Shown here one piece after another: positions 13,493-19,921 of a DNA stretch of 21,102 bases (positions are counted from its first letter, which is position 1; every line of letters begins with the position of its first letter). The stretch covers positions 1 through 21,102 of the IMG/VR virus record IMGVR_UViG_3300042509_001838, one strand, 5' to 3'. The notes under the pieces were generated by a model, which made no database searches, was not told where the DNA came from, and saw nothing but the letters and a program-made list of their open reading frames with translations. The position numbers were made by a program, and so were the translations under genes. This stretch comes from a virus.

Positions 13493-15022
13493 GTGCCAAG
13501 CTATACGCATCTTGCTTACCGCCGCAATGCTCAAGCCGCCGCACGCAGACAGCAAATACGCAAGCCACGTAACGCAGAAGCACTGAAGAAAGCCCAGGAA
13601 GATTTTGGCTTCTTCTGTGAATACGTAGCAGATAAACCACCGGCTGCTCATCACCTCAACTGGCATCGACACTTCGTCACAGAGGAGGATAGCAGTTGCC
13701 TCATTAAGATCGCTGGTCCCAATGTGGATCTCCTGGCGCCCAGGGGTTCTGCCAAGTCCACAGTGTTGGGTCTGCTTACGGCGTGGGCCATTGGCATCCA
13801 CACGCACGCAGGGCTGCCACTGCAGATTCTGTATCTGTCCTATACGGTTGACATTGCTCGTTCCAAATCTTCCACCATCAAACGCATCATTGAAAGCAAA
13901 CGATACCAAGAGGTTTTCCCTAAAGTTCGCCTTCTGAAGAACGCCACCAGTAATGAGTACTGGTCAATTGATCACAAGTTTGCTGGCATTGACGTAACAG
14001 GTGACGAACAGTTTACGCTTTGCGCAGCAGGCCTCAAGGGTTCGGTGACTTCCAAGCGTTCGCACTTGGTCATGATTGATGACGCCATTAAGTCAGCCGC
14101 AGATATTGCCAACCCTGACATCAGGAAACAGATGCAGGACAACTGGAATGCTGTGATTGCACCCACCATGTTTGAAGGTGCACGAGCAATCTGTCTTGGT
14201 ACTCGCTTCAGACACGATGACATTCACTCCACAACATTCAACGAACAAAACAACTGGCAACAGATTATCCTTTCAGCAATTCAAAACAATCCCATCACTG
14301 GCGAAGAGGAATCGTATTGGCCGGACATGTGGTCATTGGATTACCTGAAGGAGAAAAAACGGCAGGCACCAATTGCTTTCTCGTTCCAGTACATGAATCA
14401 AGTCATCCGGCAGAACGAACTTTCGTTGGCTCCGGAGTTGATTGTAAAAGCGGAAATTGCAACGGAGTTTGACGCCCTTGGAGTTGGGGTTGACCTCTCC
14501 GCTGGCACTAAAGAGAAAAACGATTACACGGTTATGATTCTTGGTGGTCGCATTGGCGACCGCATTCATATCATTGATTACCGACGTATTCGCGTCATGG
14601 GTAACCTTGAAAAACTTGATGCCCTCAAGGAGTTGTTGAATGATTGGTCAGTGATTGCCAAAGACGAACAAAGCGGTTTGTATTACCCCAGCTATTCAAC
14701 GTGCGACATTTGGAGTGAGGCCGTACAGTACCAGGCATCCCTGGAGGCAGACTTCAAACGTGTTTGCTTGAACAATGAAGGTCTTTACAATTTGATTTGG
14801 CATCCCGTCAAAGGTTTCAGGGCAGATAAGTTGGCTCGCTTCCGTGGCATTATGGGTATGTTTGAGGACCGCAAGATCATCTTCAATCGTTTTCGTAATT
14901 TCACCAATATGTTTGAAGAGCTTACCAACTTTGGCGTAAGTAGTCACGACGATTGTGTTGACGCTCTCGTCTGGCTTGTTACTGGATTAGCAAGAAAAGG
15001 ACAGCTTCACCTTGATTACTGA
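13493..15022 (+). CDS. terL: Terminase large subunit
   Basis: This 509-residue ATPase/nuclease drives DNA into the procapsid through the portal and cuts genome ends. Walker A is APRGSAKST (82-90), Walker B LVMIDD (192-197), with the catalytic acidic pair at 196-197. The C-terminal RNase H-like nuclease shows GVGVDLS with D334, D344 in the NDYTVM stretch, and SSHDDCVDALVWL near the end (D486, D487, D490). Length and domain order are normal for the family. The start is a GTG at 13493 with no Shine-Dalgarno. Genes on both sides are on the same strand, with the portal 880 nt downstream across four tiny genes. Confidence 0.93.
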   Translation: MPSYTHLAYRRNAQAAARRQQIRKPRNAEALKKAQEDFGFFCEYVADKPPAAHHLNWHRHFVTEEDSSCLIKIAGPNVDLLAPRGSAKSTVLGLLTAWAIGIHTHAGLPLQILYLSYTVDIARSKSSTIKRIIESKRYQEVFPKVRLLKNATSNEYWSIDHKFAGIDVTGDEQFTLCAAGLKGSVTSKRSHLVMIDDAIKSAADIANPDIRKQMQDNWNAVIAPTMFEGARAICLGTRFRHDDIHSTTFNEQNNWQQIILSAIQNNPITGEEESYWPDMWSLDYLKEKKRQAPIAFSFQYMNQVIRQNELSLAPELIVKAEIATEFDALGVGVDLSAGTKEKNDYTVMILGGRIGDRIHIIDYRRIRVMGNLEKLDALKELLNDWSVIAKDEQSGLYYPSYSTCDIWSEAVQYQASLEADFKRVCLNNEGLYNLIWHPVKGFRADKLARFRGIMGMFEDRKIIFNRFRNFTNMFEELTNFGVSSHDDCVDALVWLVTGLARKGQLHLDY

Positions 15023-15755: not shown

Positions 15756-15902
15756 ATGAAAACTAAAAAACTTGTAAAGCAAGCGCTGCATCATCCAGAG
15801 CTTTATTCCTCTGCCGAACTGGTGTATTTTGGCAAATGGTTAGACCTTAAGAAGCAGGCAAAAGCTGCTAAGATTGAGTCAAAGAAAAAGGAAAATAGTT
15901 AA
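15756..15902 (+). CDS. Lysine-rich microprotein (48 aa)
   Basis: The product starts MKTKKLVKQALHHPELYSSA and continues ELVYFGKWLDLKKQAKAAK with a Lys-rich tail. It looks like two short helices. GAGGAAA lies 5-11 nt before the ATG, a good Shine-Dalgarno. The TAA stop shares one base with the portal ATG (TAATG), so its translation likely feeds the portal. No family is recognised. It is too short for many gene finders. Confidence 0.6.
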   Translation: MKTKKLVKQALHHPELYSSAELVYFGKWLDLKKQAKAAKIESKKKENS

Positions 15903-18274
15903 TGGCCGTCGACGCTAAGTCTAGACTCAAGGAAATTATTGACTCGTATCTTGAAAAAGACGGCGGGTCAATGATTGACACTGGCGTCGTAGCTTCACAC
16001 CTGGCGCAGATGAAATTATTCGGCATCCGCCAGGGTGTCGAGTTTTTTCCTGTGCAAGATAACTTTGGTAATCAGCGCAAAGACTTTATTGACCGTGTAA
16101 TCAAATACAACTCTCTCGACATCCGCTTCGATTCAATCTGGGATTATTCACTTTGTGATGGGCAAGGTCTTCTTTACATCCGTCCAACTCAGAACAACTA
16201 TCGTCTTTACTACTTTCGTAAGCACGAATATCGTAGCTATTACAACATTGATGGCGAGCTTGATGAAGTTGTAATTATTTACAGCTACAAGGTCAAGAAC
16301 GGGTTTGGTTACCAGCAGGACATTGATTCCGCAAGTTTAAGTGGTCCGGCCACCATGGGGCGGGGCGGTGCAAAGCGTTACATCCGCCTTTCCATCAAAC
16401 GCAAAACGATTGAAGAAACGCACTCGGAAGGCGAGCTGTCGTTTGATAGCAACTACCAAGCAAATTTCGGTAGGACAAAAACGTTCAAAAATACGCTGGG
16501 CTTTATTCCTTGCGTAGAAATTTTCCACAACGTCAAGGGTTTCTCTACTGAAGGTGTTGGTGAATTTGAAGCGTTAGCCAATCACATCTGTACGCATGAT
16601 GAAATGGTTCGTACCATGCGTAAGAACGTGCAGTTCTTTGGTAACCCCACGCTTCTTTCCTCCAGGCCCAAGACTGACCTTATGGAGGCCGGTGGCGAGA
16701 ACGTTGTCCAGCGTCCTTCTATCGCAGCTAACTCTGGGTTCAGTGGTCCCAGTGGACTGAGTCAATCCCGATTCAAGGCTGATCCCATTCACCGTGGTAT
16801 TGACGGACAGATCAGAGTTCCACGCGTCATTGCAAACCTGGAACCAAACGACCGTGTTGGTTACATTGTTCCTGATGCCATCACTGGCGACCAGAATTCT
16901 TTCGCACGTCAGTACCGAGAAGAGATTCGCACTGCCCTGGGTGGCGTTGACGAACTGTCAATTTCTGCAGGCGTGACTGCAACTGAGTACAAGTCACTGT
17001 TTGGTCGTGTTTCTGCCACGTCCAAGAAAAAGGCAATCGCTATTTACACTTACGGTATTTGCCGTTGTTTTGAACTGATCATCTACCAGGAAGAACGTCT
17101 GTTCAGGGAGACGCTGGCCGCTGCTGCAGGATTAGAAAAACCCCTGGATCTCCCAGAGGAATCTAGTGCGGAAGACTTGGCAGCGTACAACGATGCCATG
17201 AGTGCATTTGATGATCAGGTCAAGCAGTTGATGATGGCTTGCCTTCAAACGCAGCAGATTCCGCCCGGTGTTTCTGGTTTGATTCCAGATGGCGATGTGA
17301 CCATGCAGTGGCGTTGGCTTGGACCTGTTTATGAGGATTCCACTCAAGACATCCTGAACAACTCCATCGTGGTACGCAACTTACAGGAGTTAGGTGTTGA
17401 TAGCATTGAGGCACTGAAATACCTCTTCCCGTCCAAGACGGATGAGGAACGGGCCGAGATGTTATCTGGGTTTCCGTTCAGAATGGTGAATGAATTGCAG
17501 GGTGCATACTCTCAATTTGCTCGCCTTGTGGGGGGAATGATGCAAACTCCCCATCCGCAATCACCGGATTTACCGATGGCTGCGGACCCGCGATTAGATT
17601 TAACACCCTATCTATATCGCACTTTAGAAGCTTTACAAAAGGAGATGAGTTATGCAGGACGCTACCGTCCAATCGATCCCACAGACGAGCCAAGCACCAG
17701 TGGCCGTCGCGCCGAGCAGCTACGTGGTGGCAGCACCGCAAGCAGCTCCGGCCAGCTACCAGGCTCCGGCTCCGGTGGCGTATCAGGTGGGTACCAGTTA
17801 CCCCCAAGCGGTACCTCAGGCAGCCCCCAGCTACCAATCCAGCCCTACTCAGTACGCCCCCCAATCCCAACCGGCGGCGGACTCGGCGGGGAATCCCTGG
17901 GAATCGGCGTTCAACAAGGTGGTGAATCTGCTGAGCGCACCAGTCCAATCCCCGTTCCAGGGTCAACCCTCGCAGCCGACGACGGCGTATACCCCGGCCA
18001 ATTACGGACAGTACAGCAGCCAAGCTACGCAACAATCGGCTCCGCAGACTTGGTCTCCCAACCAGGCATACTCGCCCAGCTATTCCCCAACCTCCTCCAA
18101 TCAATCCTTGCAGGAGGCGGCAAGCCAAATGGCGGACCTCCTGGGAATGAGCCAGGACAGTCGGTACGTGATGGACGCGTTCGGGATCGAAGCTCCGGCA
18201 GTGCTGAACAACTACGCTCTAAACCTGGAGCAAATGCTGGACAGCGCCGTCGCGTGGGGAAACCGCGCCGCTGA
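15902..18274 (+). CDS. Portal protein with long low-complexity C-terminal tail (790 aa)
   Basis: Portals form the dodecameric DNA entry ring at one capsid vertex. Support: position between the terminase and capsid genes; a mixed alpha/beta N-terminal body with SIWDYSLCDGQGLLYIRP (about 79-96); and the helical stretch with GGVDELSISAGVTATEYKSL and YTYGICRCFELIIYQEERL typical of the portal stem/wing region. The normal body ends near residue 580 (MSYAGRYRPIDPTDEPS). Residues 584-790 are Gly/Ser/Pro/Gln-rich and are translated in a frame that overlaps the scaffold gene by 623 nt. This tail may be a by-product of overprinting or a real extension. The start shares a base with the preceding stop (TAATG). 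Confidence 0.75.
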   Translation: MAVDAKSRLKEIIDSYLEKDGGSMIDTGVVASHLAQMKLFGIRQGVEFFPVQDNFGNQRKDFIDRVIKYNSLDIRFDSIWDYSLCDGQGLLYIRPTQNNYRLYYFRKHEYRSYYNIDGELDEVVIIYSYKVKNGFGYQQDIDSASLSGPATMGRGGAKRYIRLSIKRKTIEETHSEGELSFDSNYQANFGRTKTFKNTLGFIPCVEIFHNVKGFSTEGVGEFEALANHICTHDEMVRTMRKNVQFFGNPTLLSSRPKTDLMEAGGENVVQRPSIAANSGFSGPSGLSQSRFKADPIHRGIDGQIRVPRVIANLEPNDRVGYIVPDAITGDQNSFARQYREEIRTALGGVDELSISAGVTATEYKSLFGRVSATSKKKAIAIYTYGICRCFELIIYQEERLFRETLAAAAGLEKPLDLPEESSAEDLAAYNDAMSAFDDQVKQLMMACLQTQQIPPGVSGLIPDGDVTMQWRWLGPVYEDSTQDILNNSIVVRNLQELGVDSIEALKYLFPSKTDEERAEMLSGFPFRMVNELQGAYSQFARLVGGMMQTPHPQSPDLPMAADPRLDLTPYLYRTLEALQKEMSYAGRYRPIDPTDEPSTSGRRAEQLRGGSTASSSGQLPGSGSGGVSGGYQLPPSGTSGSPQLPIQPYSVRPPIPTGGGLGGESLGIGVQQGGESAERTSPIPVPGSTLAADDGVYPGQLRTVQQPSYATIGSADLVSQPGILAQLFPNLLQSILAGGGKPNGGPPGNEPGQSVRDGRVRDRSSGSAEQLRSKPGANAGQRRRVGKPRR
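17641..17644 (+). promoter_or_regulatory. Ribosome binding site inside the portal gene
   Basis: AAAAGGAG ends at 17644, 7 nt before ATG 17652. It gives the overlapping scaffold-like gene its own translation start and supports that frame as a real gene. Confidence 0.65.
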
Positions 18275-18638
18275 TACCATCAAGGGTTACGCTAATTTCG
18301 CTGTTAACGAGCATCAAGAGAATCTTGCCTACAACGAGATCCTTACCAATCCCGATGTTCTGAGCGATTACACGCTTAAGTTCTTTGGTCCTGAAGGTCC
18401 GTACCCTGTGTACGAAAACGAGCAGGAACTTGAGACACGCGGTTATCCGACCCAGTCGATTGGTCAGTTCCAAGCTGGCAACTTCCCTGCTCCCCCGACA
18501 GCTGCTGCTCCGCAAGCACCTGAGAATTTCTGGGGCACTTTTGGCGAGATGATGAATCGCGATCCTCAGAATGCCTGGCGCGTCCTGAACCAAGCTCAGC
18601 CTCAAACCGTTGCAAACAAACTGTTTGTAATGGAATGA
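17652..18638 (+). CDS. Putative scaffold / capsid assembly protein (328 aa), overlaps portal
   Basis: The product starts MQDATVQSIPQTSQAPVAVA. Residues 1-150 are Pro/Gln/Ala/Ser/Tyr-rich and disordered-looking; an amphipathic helix region follows (SLQEAASQMADLLGMSQDS), then helices to about 230, a FFGPEGPYPVYENEQELE segment and a final helix (APENFWGTFGEMMNRDPQNA). Disordered start plus helical end, low complexity, and location directly before the major capsid gene fit scaffolding proteins. The frame has strong G/C third positions like the capsid gene and its own Shine-Dalgarno. The first 207 or so codons overlap the portal tail in a +1 frame. Confidence 0.65.
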   Translation: MQDATVQSIPQTSQAPVAVAPSSYVVAAPQAAPASYQAPAPVAYQVGTSYPQAVPQAAPSYQSSPTQYAPQSQPAADSAGNPWESAFNKVVNLLSAPVQSPFQGQPSQPTTAYTPANYGQYSSQATQQSAPQTWSPNQAYSPSYSPTSSNQSLQEAASQMADLLGMSQDSRYVMDAFGIEAPAVLNNYALNLEQMLDSAVAWGNRAADTIKGYANFAVNEHQENLAYNEILTNPDVLSDYTLKFFGPEGPYPVYENEQELETRGYPTQSIGQFQAGNFPAPPTAAAPQAPENFWGTFGEMMNRDPQNAWRVLNQAQPQTVANKLFVME

Positions 18639-18757: not shown

Positions 18758-19921
18758 GTGTTTATTGATAACGACTTTCCAAAGATTTTAGGTGCGGAAC
18801 TTTATCGTCCCCACCCTGCGTACATCGCTGAGATGGCTGTGGAGCCCGTGGTTGTCCACGACTTCACACGTCAGCCTGGTCAAACCGTTCAGTTGGACCG
18901 CTACAAGTTCTGGGGTACCCCTGGTACTAAGGACAGCCGTGAGCGTATTGCTGACCAAACGATCGGTACCGCTAACAGCCGTAACATCACCAAAGAGAAA
19001 GTTCTGGTGGTGCTTAAGGAGTACACGGGTCCTGCGGATCCGGGCGACCCGACTCAGCCTAGCACATTCAAGATTGCTCGCGAAACTCTGGTTACCGCTC
19101 AGCGCATGCTGCTGGATACCGGCAACCTGAATATGTTCCACCAGTCGATCGGTAGCCTGACGCTGCTTGACGACTATCGCCGGTGGCGTGACCGCGTGTT
19201 CATTGATGAACTGTCCAAAGCTGAAGCCAACGGTGCAGCCTCTACAACTCAAGGCGGTTACTACTTCGCTGGTAACAAGGTTAAGGATTCTTCCGGTCGT
19301 ATTTCCTACACTGGTACTGAATACACCGCTGACCTGCAGCAGTTCCAGGTGCGTACTGACCTGCTGACCGTTGTTAAGGACCTGCGCAAGCGCAACGTTC
19401 CGACCTATGCCGATGGTCTGTATCGTTGTATTTGCGATCCCACGTTCATGATGCACCTGCGTCGTGACCCTGACTTCCGTGAGATCGCCCGTTACGCTGG
19501 TAATCCTGGTCAAGGCATGTACATGGGCAACCCCATGCTGCCTAACAACGCCAGCTTCTACCAAGGCCCCCAGGCCGGTCAAGCCTACTTCCTGGCTGGC
19601 GAACCTGTTATGCCTACTGGTGTGCAGTTTGAAGGCGTTAAGTTCTTCGAATCCACCAACTTCCCGATCAAGAGCATCAGCACTTCCTTTGACGGTGGTT
19701 CTACCTATAACGTGAAAGAAGCCGCTCAAGGTTACTTCTTCGGTCCTCAAGCGATTGGCGTTGGTATCGGTGGCCCGAACGCCCAGGTGCTCATCAACAA
19801 CAACGACGATTTCAGCCGTTTCATCATTCTTATTTGGCAACTGTACGCCGGTTTTGAAATCCTGAACAAGGACTTTGTGACCACCGCGTTCAGCTTCGTG
19901 CAAGATGACGGTAACATCTGA
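18758..19921 (+). CDS. Major capsid protein
   Basis: The 387-residue product starts MFIDNDFPKILGAELYRPHP. The GTG start follows GGAGG with 10 nt spacing. Features resembling the N4-gp56 type of HK97-fold coat proteins are the long extended N-arm, the helix of the E-loop/P-domain region with RETLVTAQRMLLDTGNLNMF, the RCICDPTFMMHLRRDPDF segment (in that family a strand-helix with a D-P-x-x-x-x-x-L-R signature) and the late GVQFEGVKFFESTNFP strand. Strong G/C third-position use suggests high expression. Assigned from pattern and position after the scaffold. Confidence 0.85.
   Translation: MFIDNDFPKILGAELYRPHPAYIAEMAVEPVVVHDFTRQPGQTVQLDRYKFWGTPGTKDSRERIADQTIGTANSRNITKEKVLVVLKEYTGPADPGDPTQPSTFKIARETLVTAQRMLLDTGNLNMFHQSIGSLTLLDDYRRWRDRVFIDELSKAEANGAASTTQGGYYFAGNKVKDSSGRISYTGTEYTADLQQFQVRTDLLTVVKDLRKRNVPTYADGLYRCICDPTFMMHLRRDPDFREIARYAGNPGQGMYMGNPMLPNNASFYQGPQAGQAYFLAGEPVMPTGVQFEGVKFFESTNFPIKSISTSFDGGSTYNVKEAAQGYFFGPQAIGVGIGGPNAQVLINNNDDFSRFIILIWQLYAGFEILNKDFVTTAFSFVQDDGNI

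Follow-up and report, generated by a model that had tools for sequence, protein, structure and literature searches.

The viral DNA analysed here (IMG/VR record IMGVR_UViG_3300042509_001838, positions 1 to 21,102, 21,102 nucleotides (nt) in total and called the window below) carries a gene for a portal protein and a scaffold-like gene that overlap by 623 nt and are read in different frames of the same strand. It is very probable that this overlap, which measures about 500-640 nt among the relatives of the virus, carries two functional genes in two frames, and dual coding as such appears almost certain from the pattern of substitutions. The overlap can be considered real because all 358 testable loci of relatives keep both frames; judged by comparison of these loci, it is kept throughout the sampled lineage and selected in both frames, except for the last ~50 residues of the portal protein. 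Overlapping genes are a known phenomenon, and it is their location at portal and scaffold that is unusual. A preliminary description of the window had claimed two long overlapping plus-strand frames, and these were confirmed when the coordinates and the offset were re-derived and the frames translated:

15902-18274, plus strand: portal gene, open reading frame of 790 amino acids (aa), ATG at 15902, stop at 18272-18274
17652-18638, plus strand: scaffold-like gene, open reading frame of 328 aa, ATG at 17652, stop at 18636-18638
17652-18274, plus strand: dual-coding overlap of 623 nt, second frame at +1, kept in 358/358 testable loci

Conservation of the overlap among relatives

Viral contigs were scanned with protein queries and with patterns, and the best 80 loci per protein scan and 120 per pattern were considered. 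This resulted in 380 loci with a portal match, 323 of which contain the two genes in full; these represent 210 distinct sequences, with some contigs retrieved repeatedly. All 323 complete loci overlap by 506-644 nt with an identical offset, the length being 2 mod 3 in every case, and an offset of 1 had been found in 127/127 loci of an earlier set. The remaining 57 loci have a truncated gene or a short portal frame. The portal stop is visible in 35 of these, each with an overlap of more than 450 nt, and is not visible in the other 22. The overlap is therefore kept in 358 of 358 loci with a visible portal stop and a scaffold frame. The arrangement is shared by the top 80 viral loci in a ranking by full-length portal, a few of which are cut by the contig end. 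Another scan relied on a pattern taken solely from the portal body, in which the commonest codon was excluded at one place, so that tails were not selected for. Here, 119 of the 120 listed loci were relatives, all 103 with a visible portal stop have the overlap, and the lowest portal identity to the window was about 71% among the matches listed.

The preliminary description had proposed that relatives with a portal stop just after 17652 would speak against its reading, and none was present among the matches listed. Likewise, there were 0 relatives among the 120 loci listed for a pattern meant to detect portals that end near residue 583 (EALQKEM, then another codon), and the six viral-contig scans gave no overlap-free relative among the matches listed, where distant relatives may be crowded out. 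In the phages collection, Synechococcus phage S-EIV1 was the sole relative of the window queries, whether the portal body (E up to 5), the portal tail with 23 preceding residues (E up to 10) or scaffold residues 161-328 (E up to 10) were used. An antisense frame of 216 aa (17478-18128) is not conserved among relatives (13 of 38 in a sample; 210 were also checked). The major capsid protein (MCP) of the window weakly matches Komagataeibacter phages (33% over 88 residues), whose annotated head genes are without such an overlap, but these phages are too distant to serve as an outgroup.

A single sequence provides moderate evidence for the overlap, because open frames are infrequent when codons are permuted or resampled. 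This was calculated for three sequences (L003, which is identical to the portal of the window, L002 and L061), each with 5000 permutations or resamplings. When the portal tail was kept constant, codon permutation left the scaffold frame open in 6, 20 and 12 of the 5000 cases, and resampling from portal-body usage did so in 198, 17 and 28. In the reverse test with a constant scaffold, an open portal frame was obtained in 57, 453 and 18 of the permutations, and resampling from the usage of the non-overlapping scaffold part gave 0, 0 and 0. The third positions of the scaffold frame in the overlap are G+C-rich, as had been described, with a mean of 0.68 vs 0.41 in the portal body (57 representatives).

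Selection in both frames

Synonymous and non-synonymous change in each frame, which had been suggested as a check, was counted in 65 disjoint pairs, 1-15% apart in the portal body, from 208 of the 210 distinct sequences (two were dropped by a filter for flank length and plain ACGT). Single changes were sorted by their effect, synonymous (S) or non-synonymous (N), in each frame, and the ratios NN/SN and NS/SS were taken for the portal frame and NN/NS and SN/SS for the scaffold frame (bounds in parentheses). Over portal residues ~586-740, the portal frame gave 0.41 (0.35-0.47) and 0.27 (0.22-0.34), and the scaffold frame of the same stretch gave 0.30 (0.26-0.36) and 0.20 (0.16-0.26). For the whole overlap, the values were 0.52 and 0.32 in the portal frame and 0.30 and 0.19 in the scaffold frame. 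The same pseudo-frame in the portal body, taken as control, gave 1.20 (1.08-1.33) and 0.86 (0.78-0.95). These ratios indicate that both frames are under purifying selection along portal residues ~586-740. The portal frame in the portal body itself gave 0.07 and 0.05, and the tail is therefore far less constrained than the body. A first set of two-frame ratios, with an overall portal-frame NN/SN of 0.68 (0.50-0.89), was weaker; these ratios were saturated and have been superseded.

The degree of constraint changes from one part of the overlap to the next. Scaffold codons ~1-57 are tight (0.16, 0.12), and the scaffold frame is the tighter frame over its first ~116 codons. At portal residues ~701-740, the portal frame is tight (0.34, 0.25) and the scaffold frame is looser (0.55, 0.40). 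Both ratios are below 1 in each frame, except at portal residues ~741-789, where the portal frame gave an NN/SN of 1.31 (1.01-1.81) and an NS/SS of 0.51 (0.32-0.96), the scaffold frame being constrained there (0.29, 0.11) and again the tighter of the two.

Evolution under a single coding frame was simulated on a tree of 57 dereplicated representatives in 60 runs. With only the scaffold frame selected, the identity of portal residues 586-740 was 0.46 (highest 0.48) vs 0.73 observed, and a stop was gained in 56.95 of the 57 sequences on average (lowest 56). With only the portal frame selected, the identity of scaffold residues 2-207 was 0.43 (highest 0.44) vs 0.77 observed, and 55.6 of the 57 sequences gained a stop on average. 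The identity of portal residues 741-789 is 0.58, which is above the scaffold-only null (0.43, highest 0.46) but not above a slow null with about half the mutation rate (0.57, highest 0.60). By these measures, portal residues 741-790 are not clearly constrained in the portal frame, and they may largely be a by-product of the scaffold frame.

The two proteins, the start site and the surrounding genes

The portal gene can be divided as follows, and two elements in front of the scaffold-like gene lie inside it:

15902-17650, plus strand: portal body, residues 1-583 (open reading frame, fold matches, PHROG 20475)
17651-18121, plus strand: constrained part of the portal tail, residues 584-740, Gly/Ser/Pro/Gln-rich with conserved motifs, portal-frame omega 0.27-0.41
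18122-18274, plus strand: last 50 residues of the portal tail and stop, without clear constraint in the portal frame
17637-17651, plus strand: ribosome-binding site AAAAGGAG (17637-17644) and 7-nt spacer, inside the portal gene
17390-17650, plus strand: low-synonymous portal segment, codons 497-583, ending at the overlap

That the upstream gene encodes a portal protein, as stated in the preliminary description, is supported by fold comparison with a low-confidence AlphaFold model (mean pLDDT 40.3). When this model was compared with the PDB by Foldseek, every one of the first 28 rows was a portal or tail-complex entry of a phage, with 'portal' in the title of 22, and 12 matches had an E of 0.001 or less. 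The best Z values from VIA-align were 9.5 (portal), 8.5 (phage connector complex) and 8.1 (portal) at root-mean-square deviations of 6-7, and the matches, P22 and Sf6 entries included, cover residues about 25-474 of the model. At the sequence level, the protein matches PHROG 20475 (head and packaging category, 'virion structural protein') with an E of 3.1e-296; a sequence profile of the portal found no relative in the PDB (best E 0.84).

In the model, the tail is mostly coil, with a sole predicted helix of low confidence at 715-736. It contains the motifs SYAGRYRPiDPTDEP, QLRg, G..LPp, QLPI.P.s.RPPiP, G.GvQqg, iPvPGSt and iGsaDL..qP...aQLFPN in this order (capitals, at least 95%; small letters, at least 75% of 87 wide representatives), between which length and sequence vary. 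The mean pairwise identity of the tail segment with 20 body residues is 0.65 among the 87 representatives (lowest 0.48), and the final tail residues differ among groups of relatives. From this pattern of motifs we infer that the tail might be a flexible linker with binding motifs. The portal frame is open until 18272 without an earlier stop, and therefore any ribosome that finishes the portal unshifted makes the tail; the idea of a fusion tail on only some of the portal subunits thus finds no support.

The scaffold-like gene was said to have its own ATG with a ribosome-binding site 7 nt upstream, and this site could be located as AAAAGGAG in the window. The sequence CAAAAGGAGATGAG[T/C]T is found immediately 5' of the scaffold ATG in 323/323 complete loci, and CAGAAGGAG stands at the ribosome-binding site in 2 of the 103 loci of the body-pattern set. 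In addition, a TGA in the scaffold frame at 17646-17648, two codons before the ATG (TGA GTT ATG) and part of a conserved GATGAG[T/C]T block, bars an in-frame run-in from upstream, which strongly implies that the scaffold-like protein starts at its own site. Given these features, we regard its independent initiation as highly probable. The TGA could permit termination-reinitiation, or it could simply be a bar to upstream fusion. The N-terminal part of the protein, which lies in the overlap, is Pro/Gln/Ala/Ser-rich, and the C-terminal part is conserved and helix-predicted. In a low-confidence model (mean pLDDT 43.9), the N-terminal part is mostly coil, and helices are predicted within 153-245 and 293-324.

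Synonymous change in the portal gene drops at codon 497 (17390), 262 nt 5' of the scaffold start, and stays low until the overlap. The deficit relative to the body is about 1.5- to 10-fold depending on the pair distance; it is about 3-fold in pairs 10-15% apart, larger for closer relatives and about 1.5-fold for the pairs that are furthest apart. At the start of the segment, TTAGGTGTTGATAGCATTGA, which is unique in the window, is nearly invariant in the 57 representatives, but the larger set of 210 shows variation at its third codon positions. No second open frame is kept in 17390-17650 (best 21 of 210), and no promoter-like site was called at the TTAGGTGTTGATAGCATTGA block. When 20 sequences were folded to a consensus, the result was moderately better than that for phase-kept column shuffles in 3 of 7 windows (z -2.4 to -2.8) and not better in the other four (-1.5 to +1.7). 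Compensatory pairs were not consistent in 79 sequences: the predicted pairs vary mostly on one side, and one poorly kept pair has a double change in 3 of the 79. Distances in the segment rise together with those in the body (r 0.53), but some pairs have an identical segment in spite of a body distance of 15-20%; exchange between lineages is not evident from these comparisons but may have occurred. The slowly changing segment may act in the control of the scaffold gene.

The portal lies between the terminase on one side and the scaffold-like and MCP genes on the other, and the scaffold-like gene is flanked by the portal and MCP genes. The neighbours are:

13493-15022, plus strand: terminase large subunit (Pfam Terminase_6C, E 5.8e-9; PHROG 38, E 1.4e-75)
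18758-19921, plus strand: MCP gene (PHROG 1357, major head protein, E 1.9e-14)

The closest isolate in the phages collection is S-EIV1 (KJ410740), with an identity of ~80% for the portal, 74% for the scaffold-like protein, 86% for the MCP and 83% for the terminase, for which ten distant others are below 60%. With all four proteins homologous at about 74-86% identity, the virus of the window is placed among the S-EIV1-like cyanophages, a common group of cyanobacterial viruses, by sequence similarity. A profile scan of genome contigs gave just two contigs of metagenome-assembled genomes (L142 and L143), which carry portal genes of the same lineage and yield no overlap-free outgroup. One belongs to a Lake Lanier bin and has a complete portal, the other to a Puniceicoccaceae bin and has an N-terminal fragment at the contig end; both are probably misbinned viral contigs.

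S-EIV1 has the same gene order and the same overlap, with a portal of 767 aa, a scaffold-like frame of 325 aa and an overlap of 554 nt. In its record no overlap is annotated, and the portal coding sequence (CDS, 767 aa) is followed by a CDS of 133 aa at 59863-60264, after the portal stop. Judged by the conserved open frame, this annotation truncates the scaffold-like gene, of which the first ~190 residues are missing. In the same record, the MCP region (60784-62010) is split between two CDSs, one antisense and the other sense and short, although a single open MCP frame spans 60859-62010. In the window, too, an antisense open frame of 371 aa with a TTG start (18788-19903, minus strand) covers the MCP gene, and it is likely a by-product of codon use; the S-EIV1 record also annotates an antisense CDS over its MCP gene. 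The S-EIV1 terminase large subunit (54080-56620; L002:14544-17084) has 846 aa, of which residues ~200-530 form an insertion with a match to Pfam Intein_splicing (E 1.4e-11). This intein-like insertion is absent from the terminase of the window (509 aa).

Origin, function and meaning of the overlap

Several points weigh against the interpretation of the overlap as two functional genes with roles in head assembly. The substitution ratios are counting estimates made without a likelihood model, and the body control for SN/SS of 0.86 (0.78-0.95) is itself slightly below 1. Under the slow null, the gap to the observed identities shrinks to 0.61 (highest 0.63) for the portal and 0.57 (highest 0.59) for the scaffold, both still below the observed values. 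The scaffold-like protein matches no Pfam family, nor any PHROG at an E of 0.1 or better; eight PHROG families are each matched by one of 57 scaffold members, with a best E of 0.11. Because of this and of the poor model, the 'scaffold' role rests on the gene position between portal and MCP. The scaffold identity given in the preliminary description is supported by this position. Moreover, the portal tail and the N-terminal part of the scaffold-like protein are products predicted from the sequence.

As to which of the frames is older, it is a serious possibility that the scaffold-like gene is the newcomer, with an ancestral start further downstream and an N-terminal part overprinted on an older portal tail. 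The synonymous codon choice of the tail is closer to the usage of the gene body than that of the scaffold N-terminal part in 47 of 57 representatives, which gives a weak hint against the tail as newcomer, and the N-terminal part is Pro/Gln/Ala/Ser-rich and predicted to be without structure. However, this signal from codon usage is weak, dual coding confounds it, and there is no outgroup with a short scaffold among the matches listed. It is possible, if somewhat doubtful, that instead the portal tail is the newcomer, as was thought in the preliminary description, and that the stop was lost and the extension then came under selection. Solved portals match just residues ~25-474 of the model, and the tail is of low complexity and predicted to be mostly coil, which is common in overprinted extensions. 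Codon usage leans the opposite way, however, and the search for a portal ending near residue 583 by the junction pattern gave none among the 120 loci listed.

It had also been proposed that the portal originally stopped near residue 583 and that, after loss of this stop, the tail is a tolerated, non-functional read-through. The unconstrained look of the last 50 residues and the low-complexity, coil-predicted composition would fit this, but the tail is present in every testable relative, its motifs are kept in the 87 wide representatives, the portal-frame omega of 0.27-0.41 for ~586-740 has upper bounds of 0.34 and 0.47, and the scaffold-only null was rejected, so that we think that this explanation is very improbable. 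The same holds for the view that only the portal frame is real, with a downstream protein starting after the portal stop as in the S-EIV1 record and the upstream frame being open by composition. The G+C-rich DNA indeed favours open frames, as the 17-198 openings in 5000 resamplings illustrate, but the scaffold-frame omega is 0.16 and 0.12 in the first ~57 codons and 0.20-0.30 over the constrained overlap, the ribosome-binding site and ATG occur in all complete loci, and the portal-only null fills nearly all sequences with stops. An assembly or sequencing frameshift is practically excluded, because 210 distinct sequences from many contigs share one offset, which is also that of the isolate S-EIV1.

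With the overlap taken as two functional genes, ribosomes that read the portal gene through would produce a 790-residue portal with a flexible C-terminal tail, and the scaffold-like protein would be the product of separate ribosomes that initiate at the near-invariant AAAAGGAG-N7-ATG. Such an internal initiation could yield the scaffold far in excess of the portal from one mRNA. Each portal subunit would carry a tail of ~200 residues, probably inside the procapsid beside the scaffold, since portal C-termini usually face the head interior. The tail motifs, chiefly iGsaDL..qP...aQLFPN, would most likely dock the scaffold, as the simplest partner, or another inner-head protein and thereby place the portal at one vertex; as a whole, the assignment of the tail as an interior docking module is tentative. 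A further-reaching and rather unlikely idea is that the overlap co-encodes mutual binding partners, with the disordered tail docking the scaffold and the upstream ~260 nt setting the scaffold-to-portal ratio by promoter or translation control. If this were true, a mutation in the overlap would alter both sides of one portal tail-scaffold interface.

Nested scaffold genes, in which initiation within an upstream head gene increases the scaffold dose, are known from C/Nu3 of phage lambda and UL26/UL26.5 of herpesviruses. The window resembles these systems in that the scaffold would come from an internal start in an upstream head gene. In contrast to the same frame and shared sequence of C/Nu3 and UL26/UL26.5, the frames differ here and the upstream gene is the portal; a same-frame start of the C/Nu3 type does not agree with the offset of 1 in 127/127 loci and the length of 2 mod 3 in 323/323. 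The portal of P22 has a C-terminal extension that forms a helical barrel, and the window portal likewise has a long C-terminal extension that would reach into the head, but its tail is Gly/Pro-rich and predicted to be mostly coil. The Rz and Rz1 genes of lambda use different frames. Rz1 lies wholly inside Rz, whereas the overlap of the window is terminal, about 600 nt long and links two head-assembly genes. These spanins are named as a case of overprinting in a passage of PMC9409062, and as in that case, two proteins are encoded by one DNA stretch. In the literature on overlaps of this kind, no portal-scaffold overlap turned up among the open-licence papers listed.

To our knowledge, an overlap of 500-640 nt in different frames that is selected in both and persists in a diverse phage lineage is uncommon among the head genes of tailed phages. 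The arrangement would tie the scaffold output to portal expression without a shared sequence, and it offers a natural system to measure how two disordered proteins evolve on one DNA stretch. It also points to a blind spot of annotation: the second gene is truncated in S-EIV1, PHROGs has a family for the portal and no match for the scaffold at an E of 0.1 or better, and gene callers limit same-strand overlaps, and therefore such pairs may be missed elsewhere.

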